Shown: positions 38,655 to 54,369 of the stretch, piece after piece | Position numbering within the stretch: position 1 is the first letter of the stretch | How the letters are laid out: every line of letters begins with the position of its first letter | NCBI RefSeq assembly: GCF_002761295.1 | Contig: NZ_CP017881.1 | Span: forward strand, 1,537,069 to 1,601,068 | Length of the DNA stretch: 64,000 bases | Source of the DNA: Methanohalophilus portucalensis | GTDB taxonomy: Archaea; Halobacteriota; Methanosarcinia; Methanosarcinales; Methanosarcinaceae | Direction: 5' to 3' | Notes under the pieces: generated by a model | The model's database searches: none | What the model was told of the DNA's origin: nothing | The model's input: the letters and a program-made list of their open reading frames with translations, nothing else | Program-made: the position numbers and the translations under genes

Positions 38655-40385
38655 TTATTTGGCCGGGATGATGAGGGATCTCTCACCAGCAGGCTCGAAC
38701 TCACGAAGCGCACCGCGTCCGAACTCCTTCCTTGGCTGGGAGAAGTCGAATGGGAGCATTTCGTCGGCGAAACAGACCTTGATCAGTGGGTTGAGTGCAT
38801 ATGCATCTCCACGACCGGCGTGTGCTCCGGCTGCGATTGCAGCGTAGCCACCTTGGTGACCAACGTTCATTGCGTAGTTCGGATAGTTTGGACCACGGAG
38901 TTCGTGGGGCAGACCTTCATCGGACTGGTAGGAGAAGGTATTGGTTGCACCACACTGGTCCTGCAGGTCGAATCCGAAGAAACCGAGACGTCCGTGACCT
39001 TCCTTGTGCAGGTACATACAGAGATACCATGCGGAGAGACCGGCGTTTGCGTTACCGGTTGCAAGGGATCCTGCACTACCGGCGGCTGCGGACAGGACGG
39101 TTGCTCTCTGGGATCCACCGAAGTGGTCTTCAAGTGCAACTGGGTATTTCTCGTAGTTCTCGAGACCGTAGAGTGTGGACTCTGTTGCGATATCCTTGAT
39201 AACATCCATACTTGGAGCGACCTTGTTGTCGATACCCTTGTCGGCTGCACCGTCATACTTGTCGTTGATGTATTCAACGTCATAGTACAGGTTGTCATCC
39301 AGAATGTTGTTGGTGTATGCAGCAGTGGAGTACTGGGTAAAACCGACACCACCAGACATGTAGGATCCGAGCCAGATCTGGTCGTAGAGCATACAACCTG
39401 CACCGACTACCTCAAGGGTTACGTTTGCAGGATCATCTGGATTTACACGGCTGGTCTGGACGATATCTGAGAGGTTACCAAAGGTGACACCACCAGGTTC
39501 GTTTGGTGCACGTGCACGTCTTGCAGGGAGCATGTCTCCCATGTTGACAACACCTGCGTGCTTTGCTGCATAGGAAAGATCTGCTACAGCTGCTTCACCG
39601 GCACACATTCCGTATGCTGCGATGTAAGACATACCGATCTGCATTGCAGTCCACCTTGTGGTCTGACCACCGTCTGTTGTTCTGGATACGATGGTTGGGA
39701 TGTGGGCTGCCTGCCAGGTAGTATTGCCGATAGCGGATTTGAGCTGTTCTGCCTGTTCTGCAGGGAACTGTTTGTCGATGTCGATGAGGAATTGGTCATC
39801 GATCTCGTCTGCAAGTTCATCGTCACCTGTGAATATTTTCACGTAACAGTCATCGACGAGTGCAGGGTGGCTCTCTACCATGTGTTCCTGAACAACTGCA
39901 CCGCCAGGGAGTGCGTGGTTGAGCACTTCGAGGTAGTGGTTGATTGTTTCAGGGGTTACCTCGATACTCAGTCTTTTCTCGAGGGTTTCGTGGGCCATAT
40001 CCATACCGACAATACAGGTTCTGCGTATGTCGTCCCACATCTGCTGCATTGCAGCATTGTTGACATAGTGAAGGTCATCATTTTCGACCATCATGTCATC
40101 ATGGCCGGAGATGAAGGATGGTGTAAGAGCTCTCTGACCGAGAGGGATACCACCGCAGTGCATCATGGGGTTGTATCCTGCAAGACCTCTTTTTTCTGCA
40201 ATATCCTTACCGACTTTCTTCATTTCCAGTTTCCTGGGGTTCTGGTCGACACCGAGGCGGTAATATGGAATTCTCATATCTGTAATGTCGCCGCCTTCCA
40301 TCTTGTTGGTGCCGTGCTCCTTTGTGAATTTAGTTTCTAAATCTTTCTGGAACATTCTTTTTCTGTCGTCTGCCATTTTACTCAC
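38655..40385 (-). CDS. mcrA: Methyl-coenzyme M reductase subunit alpha
   Basis: 576 residues, the catalytic alpha subunit of MCR, which makes methane and the CoM-CoB heterodisulfide with coenzyme F430. It carries the residues known to be modified: His276 (AAKHAGVV), Arg290 ([14 protein letters not shown]), and the [11 protein letters not shown] motif with Gly471 (thioglycine) and Cys478 (S-methylcysteine). Phe follows the thioglycine, as in Methanosarcina. The start at 40385 is set by the ATGA overlap with mcrG. An internal ATG at residue 4 is the alternative. Last gene of mcrBDCGA, followed by a strong terminator. Confidence 0.99.
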
Positions 40386-41137
40386 TCCTGTACAGCTGGC
40401 TTGTATCCATACATGGTTCTCTGTTCAAAGACCCTGTGTACCCATTCGAGGACTTCCTTGTCCTCCCTGTATGGGACATTGTCTACACGGTAGATTGTGG
40501 TCCTTTTTGCAGCTTCTTCGTCGGACATTGGTTTTCCGAGATCGACCTTCTTGTCGATTGGTCTTCCTACCTGGTCCTTCTGGACGATGATGGTTCCGTT
40601 TTCCAGACGTACTCTTTCGAGCATGTCAAACATTACACCATCTTCCTGAAGACGGAGGGAGTGACCGTGTACACTGGCACCACGAAGGTTTGCAAGTGCA
40701 GGGCAGGTCATTTCGGTTTCAAGCTGGAACTTTGCAAGTTCTTCCATGTCCCTTTCACGGGCTTCAACGACCTGACGGCCGGAAAGTGTACCCGGGTCTA
40801 CGCCTCTGAAGTTAATTGCAGCGTTGTAGGACCTGAAGTATGGGGTGGAAGGTGCATTGTACATTGAATCTACAAACTGTACGTATCTGATCCTGTCACC
40901 TGCTTTTGCACCATCTGTAGGTTCGACCATTTCACGGATGGAACATTCTGGTTCGCCCATTTCCGCCAGTGGTGGGTGGGTGCTTGGGTAATCTGTACCG
41001 GGAACACGGTGTCCAAGAATAATGGTTAAGTCATCATCAGAGATTTCCCTGAGTTTTTCGACTTTACCGGACATGTGTTTCCTTCTATTTTCCGCAACAC
41101 TTGTTGCTCCGGGATAAAACTGTGCTTCATATGCCAT
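40382..41137 (-). CDS. mcrG: Methyl-coenzyme M reductase subunit gamma
   Basis: About 251 residues. The gamma subunit of the MCR hexamer helps form the coenzyme-binding channel. The [21 protein letters not shown] start is typical. [20 protein letters not shown] near 50 and the [17 protein letters not shown] segment near 145 are conserved. ATG 41137 is preferred over the longer frame because GGAGTG lies seven bases before it and it matches the family start. The stop overlaps the mcrA start as ATGA. Confidence 0.98.
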
Positions 41138-41141
41138 ATGA

Positions 41142-41753
41142 TTACACTCCTTTGTTATCAATTGATTTCATTGTGGATTTCACTGCTTTGACGAGTTCGT
41201 TTAACTTGTCTCTTGGACAAGTTTCTCCTCGCGTCACTCCAGTCACAATCTCCATCACTTTTCCCTTTGTCTGGATGTTTTTATCTTGAGGTTTTACCAA
41301 TCTAGTATGGATACCGGCCTTTGCAAAATCTTCAAAGTCCACGATTGTCTGACAGACAACCACTGCCGGCACTTCTGCATAAACCAATATTTCCCTTACT
41401 TTCCTGACAACGTGATCACGAATGTTTCCTGTATGAATGACTGCCATCTTGTGCCTGTTTATCTGTTTGATCTCCTCCGGGTTGATACCGAAGGAACCAG
41501 ATTTCATTTGTTCATCGGGAACTCCTGATCCCGAATTGAGCACAAGCACACTTACCTGTATATCTTCTTTGCGCATTCCGTAAGTCAATTCACAAATAGG
41601 CTTGGTGATATGGCGTCTTCCGGGACTCATAGCAACTGCGACTACGTCGGTCCTGCCGGCTTCGGAGAGTGTGCCTCTCTGGGCAAGTCCGCCTCCTTTA
41701 CCAAGGCCCATTCCGTGTCTGCAATCTACAACCTGGGTTTCCCGGTCAAACAT
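41142..41753 (-). CDS. mcrC: Methyl-coenzyme M reductase operon protein C
   Basis: 203 residues. McrC is not part of the MCR hexamer. Biochemical work places it in the ATP-dependent complex that activates MCR. Conserved features are CRHGMGLGKGGGLAQRGT near residue 11, VAMSPGRRHITKPICELTYG near 41, and GITRGE/TGVTRGETCPRDKL near the C-terminus. It lies between mcrD and mcrG, with spacings of six and four bases, as in other mcrBDCGA operons. Confidence 0.96.
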   Translation of the reverse strand: MFDRETQVVDCRHGMGLGKGGGLAQRGTLSEAGRTDVVAVAMSPGRRHITKPICELTYGMRKEDIQVSVLVLNSGSGVPDEQMKSGSFGINPEEIKQINRHKMAVIHTGNIRDHVVRKVREILVYAEVPAVVVCQTIVDFEDFAKAGIHTRLVKPQDKNIQTKGKVMEIVTGVTRGETCPRDKLNELVKAVKSTMKSIDNKGV

Positions 41754-41759
41754 CTGGAA

Positions 41760-42254
41760 TCATTCCTTTTCATTTGTTCTCAGGAGGTTCACCTGTGATT
41801 CGATCTTGCTTTTCGGGTCATAAAGACCATATAAGGCAGGATCGGCTTTAGGGCCTCTTTTTGCATAATCTGAAACCGTTTGCCTTGTCTGGATGAAACG
41901 CCCTTCCCGAATGTCAAAACCGCAGGGAAGTGTGTCTTCACAAATTGTATTTATATCTTCCATGACTTCTTTTCCGGCAAGTTCCAGTGTAATTCTCCCT
42001 ACAAGTACTTCCAGGCCCATCTCGGTCTTACCAAAATGTACATTTGTCCTTAATGGATGATGTACGGGTGTTCCGACAGCAGGTCCAAATGGTACTTTTG
42101 TAGGTAGGCGCGGCCCCTGTATGAATGCCCTTAGTATACCTTCCAGACTGCAAATTCTATTAAGCAGCCCCTCTACGGTATCGGGTTTAATCATACGCTT
42201 TGGGAATATCTCGATCTGTATGGGTTTTTTTGTGTCTGAAGCAGAAGTTTCCAT
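41760..42254 (-). CDS. mcrD: Methyl-coenzyme M reductase operon protein D
   Basis: About 164 residues. McrD associates with MCR and is thought to act in assembly or cofactor handling. It is not essential for catalysis. The family pattern is seen in QIEIFPKRMIKPDTVEGLLN near the N-terminus, GPRLPTKVPFGPAVGTPVHH near 60, and LPCGFDIREGRFI near 118. ATG 42254 is preferred because GAAGGT lies seven bases before it. TTG 42269 is the longer choice. Confidence 0.96.
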   Translation of the reverse strand: METSASDTKKPIQIEIFPKRMIKPDTVEGLLNRICSLEGILRAFIQGPRLPTKVPFGPAVGTPVHHPLRTNVHFGKTEMGLEVLVGRITLELAGKEVMEDINTICEDTLPCGFDIREGRFIQTRQTVSDYAKRGPKADPALYGLYDPKSKIESQVNLLRTNEKE

Positions 42255-42283
42255 TATTGGTACCTTCAATCTTTGTGACTCAT

Positions 42284-43588
42284 TTAGAGTGATTCAGCGA
42301 CTGCTTTTATTGGTTCTCTGAATTCTTTGATTGAACCGAATACGTCACCTATGAGGCCGGATGTCTTCTCGATGGAGAACATCTGGGTACCTGCATCAAG
42401 TGATACACCAGCGGATACACATGGAATTGCGAATCCTCTTGAGTGTCTGGTTACAATGTGGTTACCGTTGAATACACCGGGACCACCGCCACCATAGATA
42501 GAGTGGCTGAAGAAAGAGAATCCTACTGCAGTACCCTGTGCCCTACCCATGTCACAGCCAGGCAGGCCAGTTTCTTTCTCAATGATATCGTTGTAATACA
42601 GAATTGTGGATGACACATTCTGGGCAGCCCTGCCTGCAGCACAGTTGACCATTGTAGCGGCAAGTTGGCCGGCTGCGGCGTAAGCGTTCCACATGGATAC
42701 ATCGTTTGCCTTGTAGAAGTTGTAACCTGAAGGAGCAGTTCTGTCGACTTCGATTACATTGTCTTCAATTGCCCTTTCAACAACAGACTGTACTACGGTA
42801 CCGACTGTTCCGTCTTTACCATTGTCTTTTACAAGATCGTATACTACGTTGTTGGCGTTAAGGCCCTGGCATGCAAATCCAAGAAGCTGATGTCTCTCGA
42901 ATTCTCCGACTGCATTACCCATTTCGAACATACCTGCCTGTTCAAAGATGGAAGACAGTGCGGCTGCATTCATTGCTTTTTTCTCTGTAATTGCAGCAAT
43001 GTGGTTGGTCATGATGTTCCTCAGGGAGTAACCCAGACCTTCGTTCTTCTGTGGGATGTTCAGGATTGAAGCGATGTTTCCACCGGCCATATCCATTGTC
43101 TGTGGGTAGTTACCCCACACTGCTCCTTTGACCACAGGTGCGTTGAACATGTCAATGTTGAACATGTCAACAATGGTCTGGACGGTTGCTGCTGCACTTA
43201 CGGTAAGTGCGGAAGAGTAGTCAGCACCGGCGGTGAGCCTTGCGGTTGGAAGCTGAACAAGAAGTTGCTTGCCGCCACCGAGAGTCTCGATGTTTGTGTC
43301 GTCATCACCGTCTATCTGTACAAGTTCCTTTACGGAATCTGCAATTGCGCCAGCATTTTCGACAATATCGAGTTCCATTTCACGTCCCGGCATGTGGCGA
43401 GCCTTTCCGCCCATCTTACCGGTTGCGAGAGATTTTTGAATACCTCCCAGGTTGACTGCTACAGTCCTCTTTGTGTCTCCGATGATACGCTGAATTGCTG
43501 CGTTCCTTGTAGGAGCGAGCTCTTCAATTGCAACGCCGCTTTCTAAGAGTTTTCCTCTGTCGTCGTAGATGTCTATTTTGTCAGACAC
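42284..43588 (-). CDS. mcrB: Methyl-coenzyme M reductase subunit beta
   Basis: 434 residues. The beta subunit of MCR forms part of the active-site channel. The start is GTG 43588 ([18 protein letters not shown]), preceded by AAAGGAGG. Conserved segments include [17 protein letters not shown] near 57 and the C-terminal [25 protein letters not shown] region, in which residues contact F430 and the thiol coenzymes. First gene of the operon, divergent from mmp10. Confidence 0.98.
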
Positions 43589-50003: not shown

Positions 50004-50167
50004 ATTTCAAAGTTTGATTTCCGTATTTTAAAAAGGTTGCGCCATTTAGGTAGTGGTTTTTCTGATGGTGTTTTATGAATTGAGAGGCCTTTGCCTCATT
50101 TAGCAGGAATAAATATAACTAATATTAAACTCAAATTTATATTAATGATTATTGAGAGGTGACTACT

Positions 50168-50626
50168 ATGAAGAAATTTATAACTATTCTAATGGCCCTA
50201 TTTATCTTTTCCATGTCTGCAGGTGCCACGATTGTTGATGACATGAAAAGTGAGGTGGATGAATACAATGCCAATTCGGATAAAGTCCCCTCCTCCCTGA
50301 AAGACATGTTGGGGAATGAGCGTATTCATGTCATAGTAGATATGAACAATGGTTCCACCCTGAATCTCAAAGTAGTAACAAGCGATGCCAGTATAGTTGA
50401 GTTTGGGGAACTGGAAGATGGTGAAGAATTTGGACCGACTCTTATTGTTAACACGAATGAAAACACTGCAAGGTCTATAATGGATTCTCCTTCCCCTGCA
50501 CAGGTTTTTCTGGATGCTTATGACAGAGGGGATATTGAGATAACTTCTCCAAGCTTTACAAAAAATGTATCCATCACAGTAGGAAAATTTATATTGAAAG
50601 TGTCCCAGTGGCTGGGCTTCTTCTGA
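50168..50626 (+). CDS. Exported small protein, intact copy of a duplicated gene
   Basis: 152 residues. A signal peptide (KKFITILMALFIFSMSAGA) is followed by a mature domain of about 130 residues, with NERIHVIVDMNNGSTLNLKV and later PAQVFLDAYDRGDIEI. The pattern vaguely recalls an SCP2-like fold, but I do not assign a family. The start at ATG 50168 is set by AGAGGTGA four bases upstream. A truncated, frame-shifted copy lies at 53746-54187, so this gene was duplicated. The three-gene AT-rich operon lies between the copies. Confidence 0.72.
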   Translation: MKKFITILMALFIFSMSAGATIVDDMKSEVDEYNANSDKVPSSLKDMLGNERIHVIVDMNNGSTLNLKVVTSDASIVEFGELEDGEEFGPTLIVNTNENTARSIMDSPSPAQVFLDAYDRGDIEITSPSFTKNVSITVGKFILKVSQWLGFF

Positions 50627-50710: not shown

Positions 50711-51478
50711 TTATACACGAGACAAGTGATTTATAACAATATTATTGAATTTCTCATATTGTTCTATAGAACATACATGACCACAATCTGTGATAATTTC
50801 AACATATGAGTTGGAGAACTTCTTACTATATTTTAATATATCATTTAAAAATAAGTAATCTTTACTACCTGAAATAAACAGTATACTGATATCATTTTGT
50901 AAACTCTTTAGCCATTCAAGACCATTCATAGTTTGAGGAATGATATTCAACCATTTGCAAAATTCATCATGGCCAAGTTTTCTTGCTTCATTTACAAAAA
51001 TATCTCTTGATCGACGGTGATTTTTTTTTGGCATTATAATATATGCGAAAAATCTGTAAAGAAGCATATAATTCACTTTTTTTTTGAGATTCATAGCTAA
51101 GAAAATCAGTAATTTTGTCTTGAGACTATATCTTATAACGCCCCCGCCCATAATGAGTGAATTAACAACATTCGGGTATAAAACCGCAAACCTTAATGAT
51201 ATCAATGAGCTGAAAGAAAAACTGATGAAGTGAGCTTTTTTCACTCCATAAAATAACATTGTGTTATGTATATGTTCACATATCATGTCAAGGTTGAGTA
51301 GTTCTTGTGAGGTGTTCTTGTGCATTTCCAATACAAGAAGATTATAGTGCCTTGAAAATGTGCCAATTTGCTTATTCCACGTCTTAGCACTACCACCAAA
51401 CCCATGAATGAGTATCAACCAATCTTCATGCTTGTTATCCTTATATATCTCGGCACTAAATGTCTTCTCTTCTGCCAT
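50711..51478 (-). CDS. Alpha/beta hydrolase with altered nucleophile elbow
   Basis: A 255-residue alpha/beta hydrolase. The oxyanion HGFGGS is near residue 25. The likely triad is Ser88, Asp207 (SGSKDYLF) and His234 (CGHVCS). The usual Gly-x-Ser-x-Gly elbow reads SFSFSS (86-91), so the flanking glycines are serines. It has no signal peptide, so it acts in the cytoplasm. It overlaps the radical SAM gene by 23 bases. AAAGGAAT precedes the ATG. The substrate is unknown. Its base composition is more AT-rich than the neighbourhood. Confidence 0.85.
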   Translation of the reverse strand: MAEEKTFSAEIYKDNKHEDWLILIHGFGGSAKTWNKQIGTFSRHYNLLVLEMHKNTSQELLNLDMICEHIHNTMLFYGVKKAHFISFSFSSLISLRFAVLYPNVVNSLIMGGGVIRYSLKTKLLIFLAMNLKKKVNYMLLYRFFAYIIMPKKNHRRSRDIFVNEARKLGHDEFCKWLNIIPQTMNGLEWLKSLQNDISILFISGSKDYLFLNDILKYSKKFSNSYVEIITDCGHVCSIEQYEKFNNIVINHLSRV

Positions 51479-52736
51479 CGGTTATTCCTTTCTTGAAAGA
51501 GAAATATCTTAAAAATCGGGGAAAATTCCTCTGTACATGTTCAGGCATCTTCTTAAATAATAACTCAGCCACAGGTTCCCATTCATCTGCCCTTGCGAAA
51601 TTTTTCATTGCAAGTTCTTCGACCGTCTCAGGGTTAGCTAAATGTGTAGACTTTGCATTGGAACTTTTGACTACATTTATAAGTGACTGTGGATTATCTA
51701 TTATAGGACATGCTCGTAATGGGTTCTCAGAGAAAGGTTGAGAATTCCTGAACTCGGTGAAGAACTTGGACCTAAGTGCCTCAACAAGCGAAACATCATA
51801 TATATTCGAGTCAGAATAATGGCAAAATGCACAAGGTTCAACATCTCCTTTAGCATTTATATGGGCAAATCCAACACCTGCTCCAATACATCCAAAAGAA
51901 AGGTGTCCGTTGTTCCAAAAATCTATGATCACATAATCGTTTTTGGTACTATAATCCCGAATCTTCTCTTGTACATAGGCCCTTTGTTCAGCTGTACAGA
52001 CCAAACTAGTATCAGCATTACTTCCAACCGGGATATACTGGAAAAGCCATCCAAACCATGCACCCTTCTCTCTCATATGATCTAGGAACTCATCACTGGC
52101 AATGGTCTTATAGTTGCCATAGTGATAACATGCTGAAAATGCAAATGCAATGCCTTTATCACTCAAAACATCCATGGCTTTAATTACCTTGTTATAAACA
52201 CCTTCCCCTCTTCTAAAATCAGTCTCTTCTCGTGTACCCTCTATACTCAAAAATACGTTCAAGTTACCCAGCTTTGCCATCTCATCTGCAAAGTTTTCAT
52301 CTATCAATGTTCCGTTTGTGAAAATTCCAAAAGTCATTTTATTATGTTTTCTACATATTTTTAAAATATCATCTTTACGGAGCAATGGTTCTCCACCGGT
52401 CATCAAACAGTCCTTTATCCCAAGTTGCTCAGCCTGGTCTAATATATCATTTAGCTTCTCATAGGATATATTATGGCCACTTTCATAATCATGCGACCAA
52501 CAACCTTTACATTTCAGATTACAATTACTGGTCGGATCAATAAGGAGTACTCTGGGTATTGAACATTTGTTGTTAAAGCCTTTATACAACTCTTTTAATG
52601 TAATAAAATTACCCATAGTCAAATGGGTGGTTAACCCTTTTGCAAAAAAGAACTGTTTACTTCTGTAAATATAAGCCTTGTGATGTGGAAATGGTGGAAT
52701 TTCTTCCTTTTTACCATTTATCAGCATATACTTCAA
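51456..52736 (-). CDS. Radical SAM/SPASM domain protein
   Basis: 426 residues. The radical SAM cluster motif is Cys72-xxx-Cys76-xx-Cys79 (SNCNLKCKGCWS), with GGEP at 114-117. A SPASM-like C-terminal cysteine set follows: Cys283 (GCIGAG), Cys302 and Cys305 (PCAFC), and Cys343 (RACP). SPASM proteins often modify peptides or proteins, but some act on other substrates. The TTG start at 52736 has GAGGT six bases upstream. Stop overlap with the hydrolase gene and a 12-base gap to the upstream exoprotein gene make it the middle gene of a three-gene operon. The substrate is not known, and no small precursor peptide gene was seen. Confidence 0.88.
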   Translation of the reverse strand: MKYMLINGKKEEIPPFPHHKAYIYRSKQFFFAKGLTTHLTMGNFITLKELYKGFNNKCSIPRVLLIDPTSNCNLKCKGCWSHDYESGHNISYEKLNDILDQAEQLGIKDCLMTGGEPLLRKDDILKICRKHNKMTFGIFTNGTLIDENFADEMAKLGNLNVFLSIEGTREETDFRRGEGVYNKVIKAMDVLSDKGIAFAFSACYHYGNYKTIASDEFLDHMREKGAWFGWLFQYIPVGSNADTSLVCTAEQRAYVQEKIRDYSTKNDYVIIDFWNNGHLSFGCIGAGVGFAHINAKGDVEPCAFCHYSDSNIYDVSLVEALRSKFFTEFRNSQPFSENPLRACPIIDNPQSLINVVKSSNAKSTHLANPETVEELAMKNFARADEWEPVAELLFKKMPEHVQRNFPRFLRYFSFKKGITDGRREDI

Positions 52737-52748
52737 TTACAAACCTCA

Positions 52749-53483
52749 TCACTCTTTTTTTGTTACGGTTACTTTTTGTGGAACTACACCATCAAATACA
52801 AACTCACCTTTCTCGTTCGCATCCAGACTTGTTATCTCAAGACCCGGGACCACTTGATATATACGGGGAATATACTCTTCCATAGTTTGCACACTATCTT
52901 CTTCCATATATTTTTCAGGAAGGGGAACTGGTCCGAGATACAAGGATTCTGGATCACCGGTTAATTGATTATTTGTAATCTTTATATTGCCTTTACTGTA
53001 TATGTTCAAGTTGTCAGGTAAGGGGACGGGGACATCGTCTGCTATATCTGTATAAAGATCATTTTCAAGTCGCTTTATATCAGCTTTACTTGATCCTTCC
53101 ATACTACCATCCGGATTAACTTTTACCTGTATATCATCAAACCACCAAAATCCAGGTGCAATTTCATTTAATAGTGCTGTCGCCTCTGAGTTGGTCAATA
53201 CGAATTGCTTTTGTTGATAATCCGAGAATTCAAATTCATAGTCATGGAACGATTTCTTTTCAGCATTCTTTTTGTACTCTTCTAATTCCTCACCAGTCAT
53301 CCCTTCAAATTCTATTTGGATTCCCGTTTTTTCTAATGAATTCTGATAATCTTCATAACTATATGTCACTCCCAGGTCTTTGGGCCCCATGATAGAAAAA
53401 CTTGCAAATACCACAACTAAACCAATCACAACCAATATGCCTGCTGCTGAAAGTATATAAGTCAACTTTCCTTTAAATTCCAT
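52749..53483 (-). CDS. Single-TM exoprotein, first gene of the radical SAM operon
   Basis: 244 residues. One hydrophobic helix at about 9-33 (ILSAAGILVVIGLVVVFASF) anchors an outer domain of about 205 residues rich in Glu, Asp and Lys, with FEFSDYQQKQFVLTNSEATA near 87 and GNIKITNNQLTGDPESLYLG near 165. The beta-strand-like pattern fits a lipid- or substrate-binding fold, but I do not recognise the family. AGGAGGT lies before the ATG. It is the promoter-proximal gene of the operon 53483-50711. Confidence 0.72.
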   Translation of the reverse strand: MEFKGKLTYILSAAGILVVIGLVVVFASFSIMGPKDLGVTYSYEDYQNSLEKTGIQIEFEGMTGEELEEYKKNAEKKSFHDYEFEFSDYQQKQFVLTNSEATALLNEIAPGFWWFDDIQVKVNPDGSMEGSSKADIKRLENDLYTDIADDVPVPLPDNLNIYSKGNIKITNNQLTGDPESLYLGPVPLPEKYMEEDSVQTMEEYIPRIYQVVPGLEITSLDANEKGEFVFDGVVPQKVTVTKKE

Positions 53484-53745
53484 AATCGAACCTCCTCCTA
53501 AATTTATATCATTTTATTATGCTATGAATAAACCTATATTTAAGCAATAGTATTAAAGTAACAAATTGTATTACTAAAACAAATAATTCAACATTCAAGC
53601 AAAATAATATCTGTAAAAATAACTTTAATATTAAGGAACAACTGGCAGAAATATATACTCATTATTTCTAAAATAAAGAAATAATTCGATTTTGTTTATT
53701 AAAAATATGCCATTCAGTATATCTAATAAAATTGTCTAAGTCGGA
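53484..53745. other. 262-base AT-rich gap between the radical SAM operon and the truncated gene copy
   Basis: No gene is visible. It holds the promoter region of the minus-strand operon (several TATA-like runs). Its right edge is where homology to the intact 50168 gene begins, so it also marks the breakpoint of the duplicated copy. Confidence 0.5.
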
Positions 53746-54187
53746 TTATAACTATTCTAATAGCTCTATTTGTCTTCCATGTCTGCAGGTTCTACCATTG
53801 TTGATGATATGAAAAGGGAGGTGGATGAATACAATGCCAATTCAGATGCCATTCCATCTTCCCTGAAATACATGATGTGCAACGAACGCATCCATATTAT
53901 TATAGATATGAATAACGGCTTTGCCTTAAATCTCATTGTCGTGACAGTCGATGGTAAGATTGTTGAGTTTGCTGAAATGGAAGAAGGTGAAGAATTTGAA
54001 CTCACTCTTATTATAAGCACTGGAGGTACTGAAAGTCCATAATGAATTCTACTTGTCCAACTCAGGTTTTCTGGATGCTTATGACAGAGAGGATATTGAG
54101 ATTACTTATCCAAGTTTTACAAAAAATATATCTTTCACAGCAGTGAAAATTATACTGAAAGTGTCCCATTGGCTGGGCTTCTACTGA
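53746..54187 (+). pseudogene. Truncated, frame-shifted copy of the exported protein gene at 50168
   Basis: Nucleotide similarity to 50178-50626 begins at 53746 and runs to the matching stop (54185-54187) and beyond into the 3' flank. The start codon and first residues are missing, two bases are deleted in the signal-peptide part (TCTTCC where the intact gene has TCTTTTCC), and later deletions near 54037-54070 shift the frame. The encoded segments (VDDMKREVDEYNANSD, DAYDREDIEI, KVSHWLGFY) match the intact gene closely. It is a dead copy. Confidence 0.85.
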
Positions 54188-54369
54188 TATGATTTCCTGT
54201 ATATTTTTTCTTTTTTATTTTTACTGTATGGCTTTTCTACCAGAAACTACATAAAAGTTCATGCATAATTAGTTACAATTCTACTTATTGCATGTATGCT
54301 ATTACTGGCATATTTTTGCCCGGTGTGGCCAATCTGAATTATCAATAAGAGGACATGAAGAGGTATTCT

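Follow-up and report, generated by a model that had tools for sequence, protein, structure and literature searches.

What could a radical SAM enzyme be doing between a membrane-anchored protein and a hydrolase, and do the three belong together at all? The question is raised by a cassette of three open reading frames on the minus strand of the genome of Methanohalophilus portucalensis, at positions 50711-53483 of the window (the whole stretch of 64,000 nucleotides that was analysed). Their order is EXO, the radical SAM enzyme (rSAM) and an alpha/beta hydrolase (ABH). The host genome is one complete contig of 2.08 Mb with an mcr operon at window positions 38655-43588, from which we take the host to be a methanogenic archaeon. 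An earlier note on this DNA proposed that the three genes probably act together as a system that had not been described. In our opinion, with a probability of roughly 0.45, the cassette serves to modify and handle a hydrophobic molecule, for instance a lipid, at the cytoplasmic membrane.

Layout and conservation of the cassette

The tight packing that had been noticed is indeed there: 12 bases separate EXO from rSAM, and rSAM overlaps ABH by 23 bases (Table 1). No Rfam element was found, and a promoter scan scored no better than shuffled sequences. Purifying selection acts on each of the three genes, with dN/dS-type ratios relative to Methanosalsum of about 0.07 for rSAM, 0.14 for EXO and 0.18 for ABH. 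Given these low ratios and the synteny kept across genera and domains, the cassette is not a product of chance.

Table 1. Features of the cassette, in window coordinates
Feature	Position	Strand	Remarks
EXO	52749..53483	-	244 aa, ATG start; membrane-anchored, first gene of the cassette; aligned with 25 homologues
rSAM	51456..52736	-	426 aa, TTG start; SPASM/twitch-like C-terminal region; Pfam PF04055, PF13186
ABH	50711..51478	-	255 aa, ATG start; Pfam PF00561
EXO transmembrane helix, residues 10-28	53400..53456	-	Hydropathy and neighbouring charges across the family; modelled as helix 4-31
EXO predicted external domain, TULIP-like element order, residues 82-242	52758..53240	-	AF2 models; weak Foldseek/VIA matches to BPI, LBP, CETP, YceB
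rSAM SAM [4Fe-4S] cluster motif CNLKCKGC, C72/C76/C79	52500..52523	-	Invariant, 55/55
rSAM putative auxiliary-cluster region, C283-X13-G-X4-C302-X2-C305 ... C343	51708..51890	-	Conservation in 55 sequences
ABH triad S88; D207; H234	51215-51217; 50858-50860; 50777-50779	-	Invariant, 20 homologues
Strong Shine-Dalgarno-like AGGAGGAGG, immediately 5' of EXO	53484..53500	-	Sequence read

A scan of the genome collection gave 63 loci. The same gene order occurs in Methanolobus, Methanomethylovorans, Methanococcoides and Methanosalsum, as well as in several Bacillota (some Clostridia and Bacilli), and the three genes strictly form a unit in the Methanosarcinaceae. EXO adjoins the rSAM gene in every full-length archaeal copy with flanking sequence, and among 60 relatives the genomes with full-length rSAM are precisely those with EXO. 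Across the phylum, 27 of 393 genomes have a relative of rSAM, and those relatives with 77-100% identity all belong to the host's family; nine additional loci came from this search, and both EXO and ABH are present at 9/9. Among 245 clostridial genomes, every strong match to EXO adjoins an rSAM gene. The proposal of joint action is thus borne out by a unit conserved across genera and domains, with rSAM homologues accompanied by both other genes in Methanosarcinaceae and some Bacillota. Several bacterial relatives carry EXO and rSAM only, hence ABH is the most dispensable part of the cassette.

Two genomes depart from this picture. One (G027 C8:29211-29546, L075) retains a decayed remnant of rSAM, residues 1-111 with two stops, with neither EXO nor ABH nearby, a pattern that would fit loss of the cassette as a whole. 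Another, of the Methanosarcinaceae (G614), has two equal-scoring enzyme genes (C1:62506-63780 and 148683-149957).

The rSAM clade as a whole has four types of neighbourhood. EXO-rSAM-ABH is that of the Methanosarcinaceae and some Bacillota, and EXO-rSAM that of other Clostridia. Bacteroidales and one Coriobacteriia MAG have rSAM flanked by c4, a lipoprotein, and c5, a small protein with four transmembrane segments; in other Firmicutes, the company is a large lipoprotein and an ABC-2 exporter. The latter context looks like an operon, its lipoprotein being without a Pfam family and its exporter having two permeases (L028-L030, L045, L050, L053, L054, L056). Those genomes with c4-c5 or ABC-2 contexts that were searched contained no EXO, and comparison of profiles detected no relation between EXO, the Bacteroidales lipoprotein and the Firmicutes lipoprotein. 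Across all contexts rSAM stays 51-63% identical while its exported partners differ.

Origin of the archaeal cassette

In the enzyme tree all enzymes from EXO-rSAM-ABH cassettes form one group (support 98/94), and the c4-c5 enzymes form another (99/95). Since the archaeal clade is nested within Bacillota, with enclosing nodes at 99/97 and 98/94, horizontal transfer of the cassette out of bacteria into methanogens is the most likely course. Such an acquisition goes beyond anything in the earlier note, and it would make the cassette a clean example of a multi-gene unit passing from bacteria to archaea.

In the host genome the cassette lies between an intact gene for a secreted protein of 155 aa (50159-50626, plus strand) and a frameshifted second copy of that gene (about 53681-54240, plus strand), the two copies being 80% identical in DNA. 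Congeners of the host are without the cassette, and five of them have a single copy of the 155-aa gene at the site, thus providing an empty-site pair. The cassette is also present in cultured Methanolobus species and absent from close relatives. The relatives of rSAM on plasmids, 36-40% identical to it, are orphan radical SAM genes.

The three proteins

When all three proteins were searched with profiles, rSAM and ABH matched Pfam families, EXO matched nothing, and no pathway family was hit. The match of rSAM to Radical_SAM is clear (5.6e-22; 79.1 bits against a cut-off of 29.5), and C72, C76 and C79 form the CxxxCxxC motif of the superfamily. SPASM (PF13186) is also reached, at 23.8 bits against a cut-off of 21.5, and was recovered again in a genome-wide search. 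The earlier note had called the cysteines at 283, 302, 305 and 343 SPASM-like. Their conservation is indeed high (C283, C302 and C343 in 55/55 homologues, C305 in 52/55), and to them must be added the unlisted C72/C76/C79 and an equally invariant C203. However, they do not amount to a full SPASM domain. The latter has the pattern CX9-15GX4C ... CX2CX5CX3C ... C and two auxiliary clusters. Of this seven-cysteine pattern, rSAM has CX13GX4C (283-302) but no CX2CX5CX3C, the remaining conserved cysteines being C203, C305 and C343, so that a single auxiliary cluster of the twitch-like kind is more likely than two. The part before the core is about 60 residues long, and the other conserved cysteines number only 4-5.

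By sequence, the nearest solved relatives of rSAM are SkfB, anSME and SuiB-type enzymes, with matches limited to the core or extending slightly beyond it. None of the NCBIfam equivalogs searched was reached (best 79 bits against a cut-off of 500), and rSAM belongs to no named pathway family, which agrees with the proposal that the system was undescribed. A PADLOC match to viperin was rejected, as it spans the generic radical SAM core only.

EXO had been described as a protein with a single transmembrane helix and an outer domain, and this reading holds. There is one helix near the N terminus, preceded in most members by positive charge, and a zinc ribbon stands ahead of it in several clostridial homologues; on these two grounds the remaining domain is predicted to be outside the cell. 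What does not hold is the phrase "outer-membrane-face" under which the system had been presented: in a methanogenic archaeon the face concerned would be the outer face of the cytoplasmic membrane only.

No Pfam family was found for EXO with 26 members and three consensus queries, the DUF2140/LmeA TULIP profiles included, and NCBIfam and PADLOC gave it no name. DUF2140/LmeA members were also sought in Clostridia and Bacilli as partners for profile-profile comparison, and matches were lacking. The AlphaFold model of the window's EXO (pLDDT 84.9) contains, in order, E82-87, E90-96 with H98-107, E115-122, E128-135, E158-170, E173-183, H190-210 with E216-222, E228-234 and E237-242, that is, beta(-1), beta-alpha, a four-strand meander, alpha-beta, beta(+1) and beta(+2). 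Bacterial TULIP domains have an alpha-beta4-alpha core preceded by one additional strand and followed by two (PMC6791001, PMC5507252), and the TULIP order of elements is matched by the model one by one. A clostridial homologue (L048), with about 39% identity to the window's protein, was modelled as well (pLDDT 87.1); its layout is closely similar, except that some adjacent strands merge. With either model the top four VIA matches are CETP, YceB, LBP and BPI, all weak (Z 3.1-3.9, rmsd 6-10 A); the remaining rows are mostly TULIP or StART-like lipid binders, and the first Foldseek matches are BPI or LBP, again weak (E about 1e-3). The order of elements is thus as in YceB, DUF2140 and the BPI/LBP/CETP families, which are also the best if weak structural matches, whereas at the sequence level there is no match to them, and EXO differs further by its fusion to a zinc ribbon in several bacteria and by travelling with rSAM. 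Taken together, the models make a TULIP-like lipid-binding fold rather probable, a point that the earlier note did not raise.

Clostridia also encode proteins with weak similarity to EXO, about 230-275 aa long and in one case with a zinc ribbon, that have no adjacent enzyme (L105, L109, L110, L111, L113). A larger undescribed family, with EXO as one of its branches, seems to exist; these five proteins gave no bridge to Pfam.

The designation of the third protein as a hydrolase proved right. ABH matches Abhydrolase_1 (PF00561) at 1.4e-10, and given the invariant Ser-Asp-His triad expected of alpha/beta hydrolases, it is apparently active. Its profile relatives include monoacylglycerol lipase and C-C hydrolases. 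MGS-M2 (4q3l), RutD and ABHD6 have its fold and triad, although no equivalog is reached by ABH. The hydrolases of the cassettes have in common a conserved stretch around RFFAYIIMPKKNH.

In the literature we found no description of the EXO-rSAM-ABH trio, nor did we find a Pfam family or NCBIfam equivalog that describes it. The parts come from known superfamilies; their combination, the swaps of partner and the spread between domains appear undescribed in the sources searched, the lipid enzyme Gms being compared by its published description.

What the cassette may act on

As substrate, the exoprotein itself, a lipid and a small molecule had all been suggested. These three can be separated only incompletely, and the balance favours a hydrophobic molecule. 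The enzyme remains 51-63% identical while the exported proteins beside it are exchanged for unrelated ones, which argues for a substrate that is conserved and is not a protein. That it is a lipid or otherwise lipophilic is favoured by the probable lipid-binding nature of EXO, by an apparently active hydrolase and by the ABC exporter in one of the contexts. Accordingly worded as a scheme, cytosolic rSAM, with its SAM cluster and probably one auxiliary Fe-S cluster, would turn an unreactive carbon of the substrate into a radical and there form or alter a bond. ABH, also cytosolic, might cleave or transfer an acyl or ester group of the same molecule. The membrane-anchored EXO, with its outward-facing hydrophobic tube of TULIP-like build, would then accept, extract or present the product. 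An SPASM-type radical SAM enzyme that acts on lipid has a precedent in Gms (PMC11186832).

Several observations count against a lipid. The TULIP matches are weak (all Z < 4) and come without a Pfam TULIP family; genes of lipid biosynthesis are not among the conserved neighbours; the host has its Tes elsewhere; and its congeners live without the cassette. If the reading holds, radical SAM chemistry gains a lipid-handling partner, and methylotrophic methanogens and clostridia would seem to have a lipophilic product in common. A stronger version would see here lipid modification by a radical SAM system of a new class, consisting of enzyme, hydrolase and membrane-anchored TULIP-type carrier, that passed from Bacillota to methanogens despite their different membrane lipids. 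We put this forward tentatively and consider it rather doubtful; if true, the substrate or its handling is common to both sides of the lipid divide and TULIP lipid carriers operate at archaeal cell surfaces.

The most serious alternative is that rSAM is a maturase of its exported partner, crosslinking or otherwise modifying EXO, or the lipoproteins of other clades, ahead of export, with ABH as an accessory. The SPASM enzymes that have been characterised mostly have peptides or proteins as substrates, and this weighs against a lipid. An exported protein beside rSAM is a constant feature of most contexts, and EXO has invariant residues, among them Y41, K52, W114 and F115 (alignment with 25 homologues). 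There is even an analogous pairing in NCBIfam, the hypothetical equivalog TIGR04133 (rSAM_w_lipo), a radical SAM/SPASM family named for an adjacent lipoprotein and in this respect similar to the Bacteroidales context. However, with 57.2 bits the window's rSAM stays below the cut-off of 425 for that family, and its partners are EXO and a hydrolase. Further, Pfam finds no peptide-recognition domain in rSAM, and EXO is predicted to be exported through its N-terminal anchor whereas rSAM is cytosolic. The swapping of partners without detectable similarity makes modification of the partner hard to understand, and a common lipid or hydrophobic metabolite is the simpler assumption. We therefore think a maturase unlikely, if worth keeping in mind.

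Patchy distribution and horizontal transfer would also suit a cassette for a secreted small metabolite (a signal, antimicrobial or cofactor) rather than a membrane lipid, with EXO as its receptor, immunity or export partner, and ABC-2 exporters do adjoin rSAM in one bacterial context. But no conserved biosynthetic scaffold or resistance gene lies near the archaeal cassettes and no known natural-product maturase was matched at cut-off, which leaves this explanation quite improbable.

That a precursor peptide was overlooked and the pathway is a standard RiPP one is very unlikely: the best PDB relative of rSAM by sequence is indeed a sactipeptide maturase with a peptide precursor, SkfB (6efn, 4.1e-17 by profile), but beyond the radical SAM core that match takes in no more than part of the auxiliary region, and, as had been noted before, no precursor is seen, since the 800-base flanks of the cassettes hold no small ORF common to different genera (those in common are mainly limited to syntenic Methanolobus loci, where they overlap the flanking genes).

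Hardly more credit can be given to a membrane-lipid crosslinking enzyme of a known archaeal or bacterial type, Tes, Gms or Mss, although the superfamily is in common and Gms and Mss act on lipid tails in anaerobes. Only residues 63-173 of rSAM match Tes (GDGT-MAS; 7tol, 9.2e-5), that is, its radical SAM core, and identity with Tes was rejected for want of full-length similarity and because the host has a separate Tes orthologue at about 1961696-1963174 of its genome (L114:697-2175; phmmer 1.7e-176 to 7tol). Gms, the GMGT synthase of anaerobic archaea, likewise combines a radical SAM core with a C-terminal SPASM domain and acts on lipid; the available part of its description (PMC11186832) models three clusters and a six-helix N-terminal domain, as against the short N-terminal part and few cysteines of rSAM, and mentions no EXO or hydrolase partner.

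Returning to the archaeal cassettes themselves, genes for NnrU-like, glyoxalase-like, alanine racemase-like and DUF1638 proteins are recurrent neighbours; they were rejected as parts of the cassette, being outside it and limited to certain taxa. In nine loci of Methanolobus and Methanomethylovorans (L010, L013-L015, L017-L021) the gene for the NnrU-like membrane protein is found on one or the other side of the cassette, at a distance of no more than about 3 kb.
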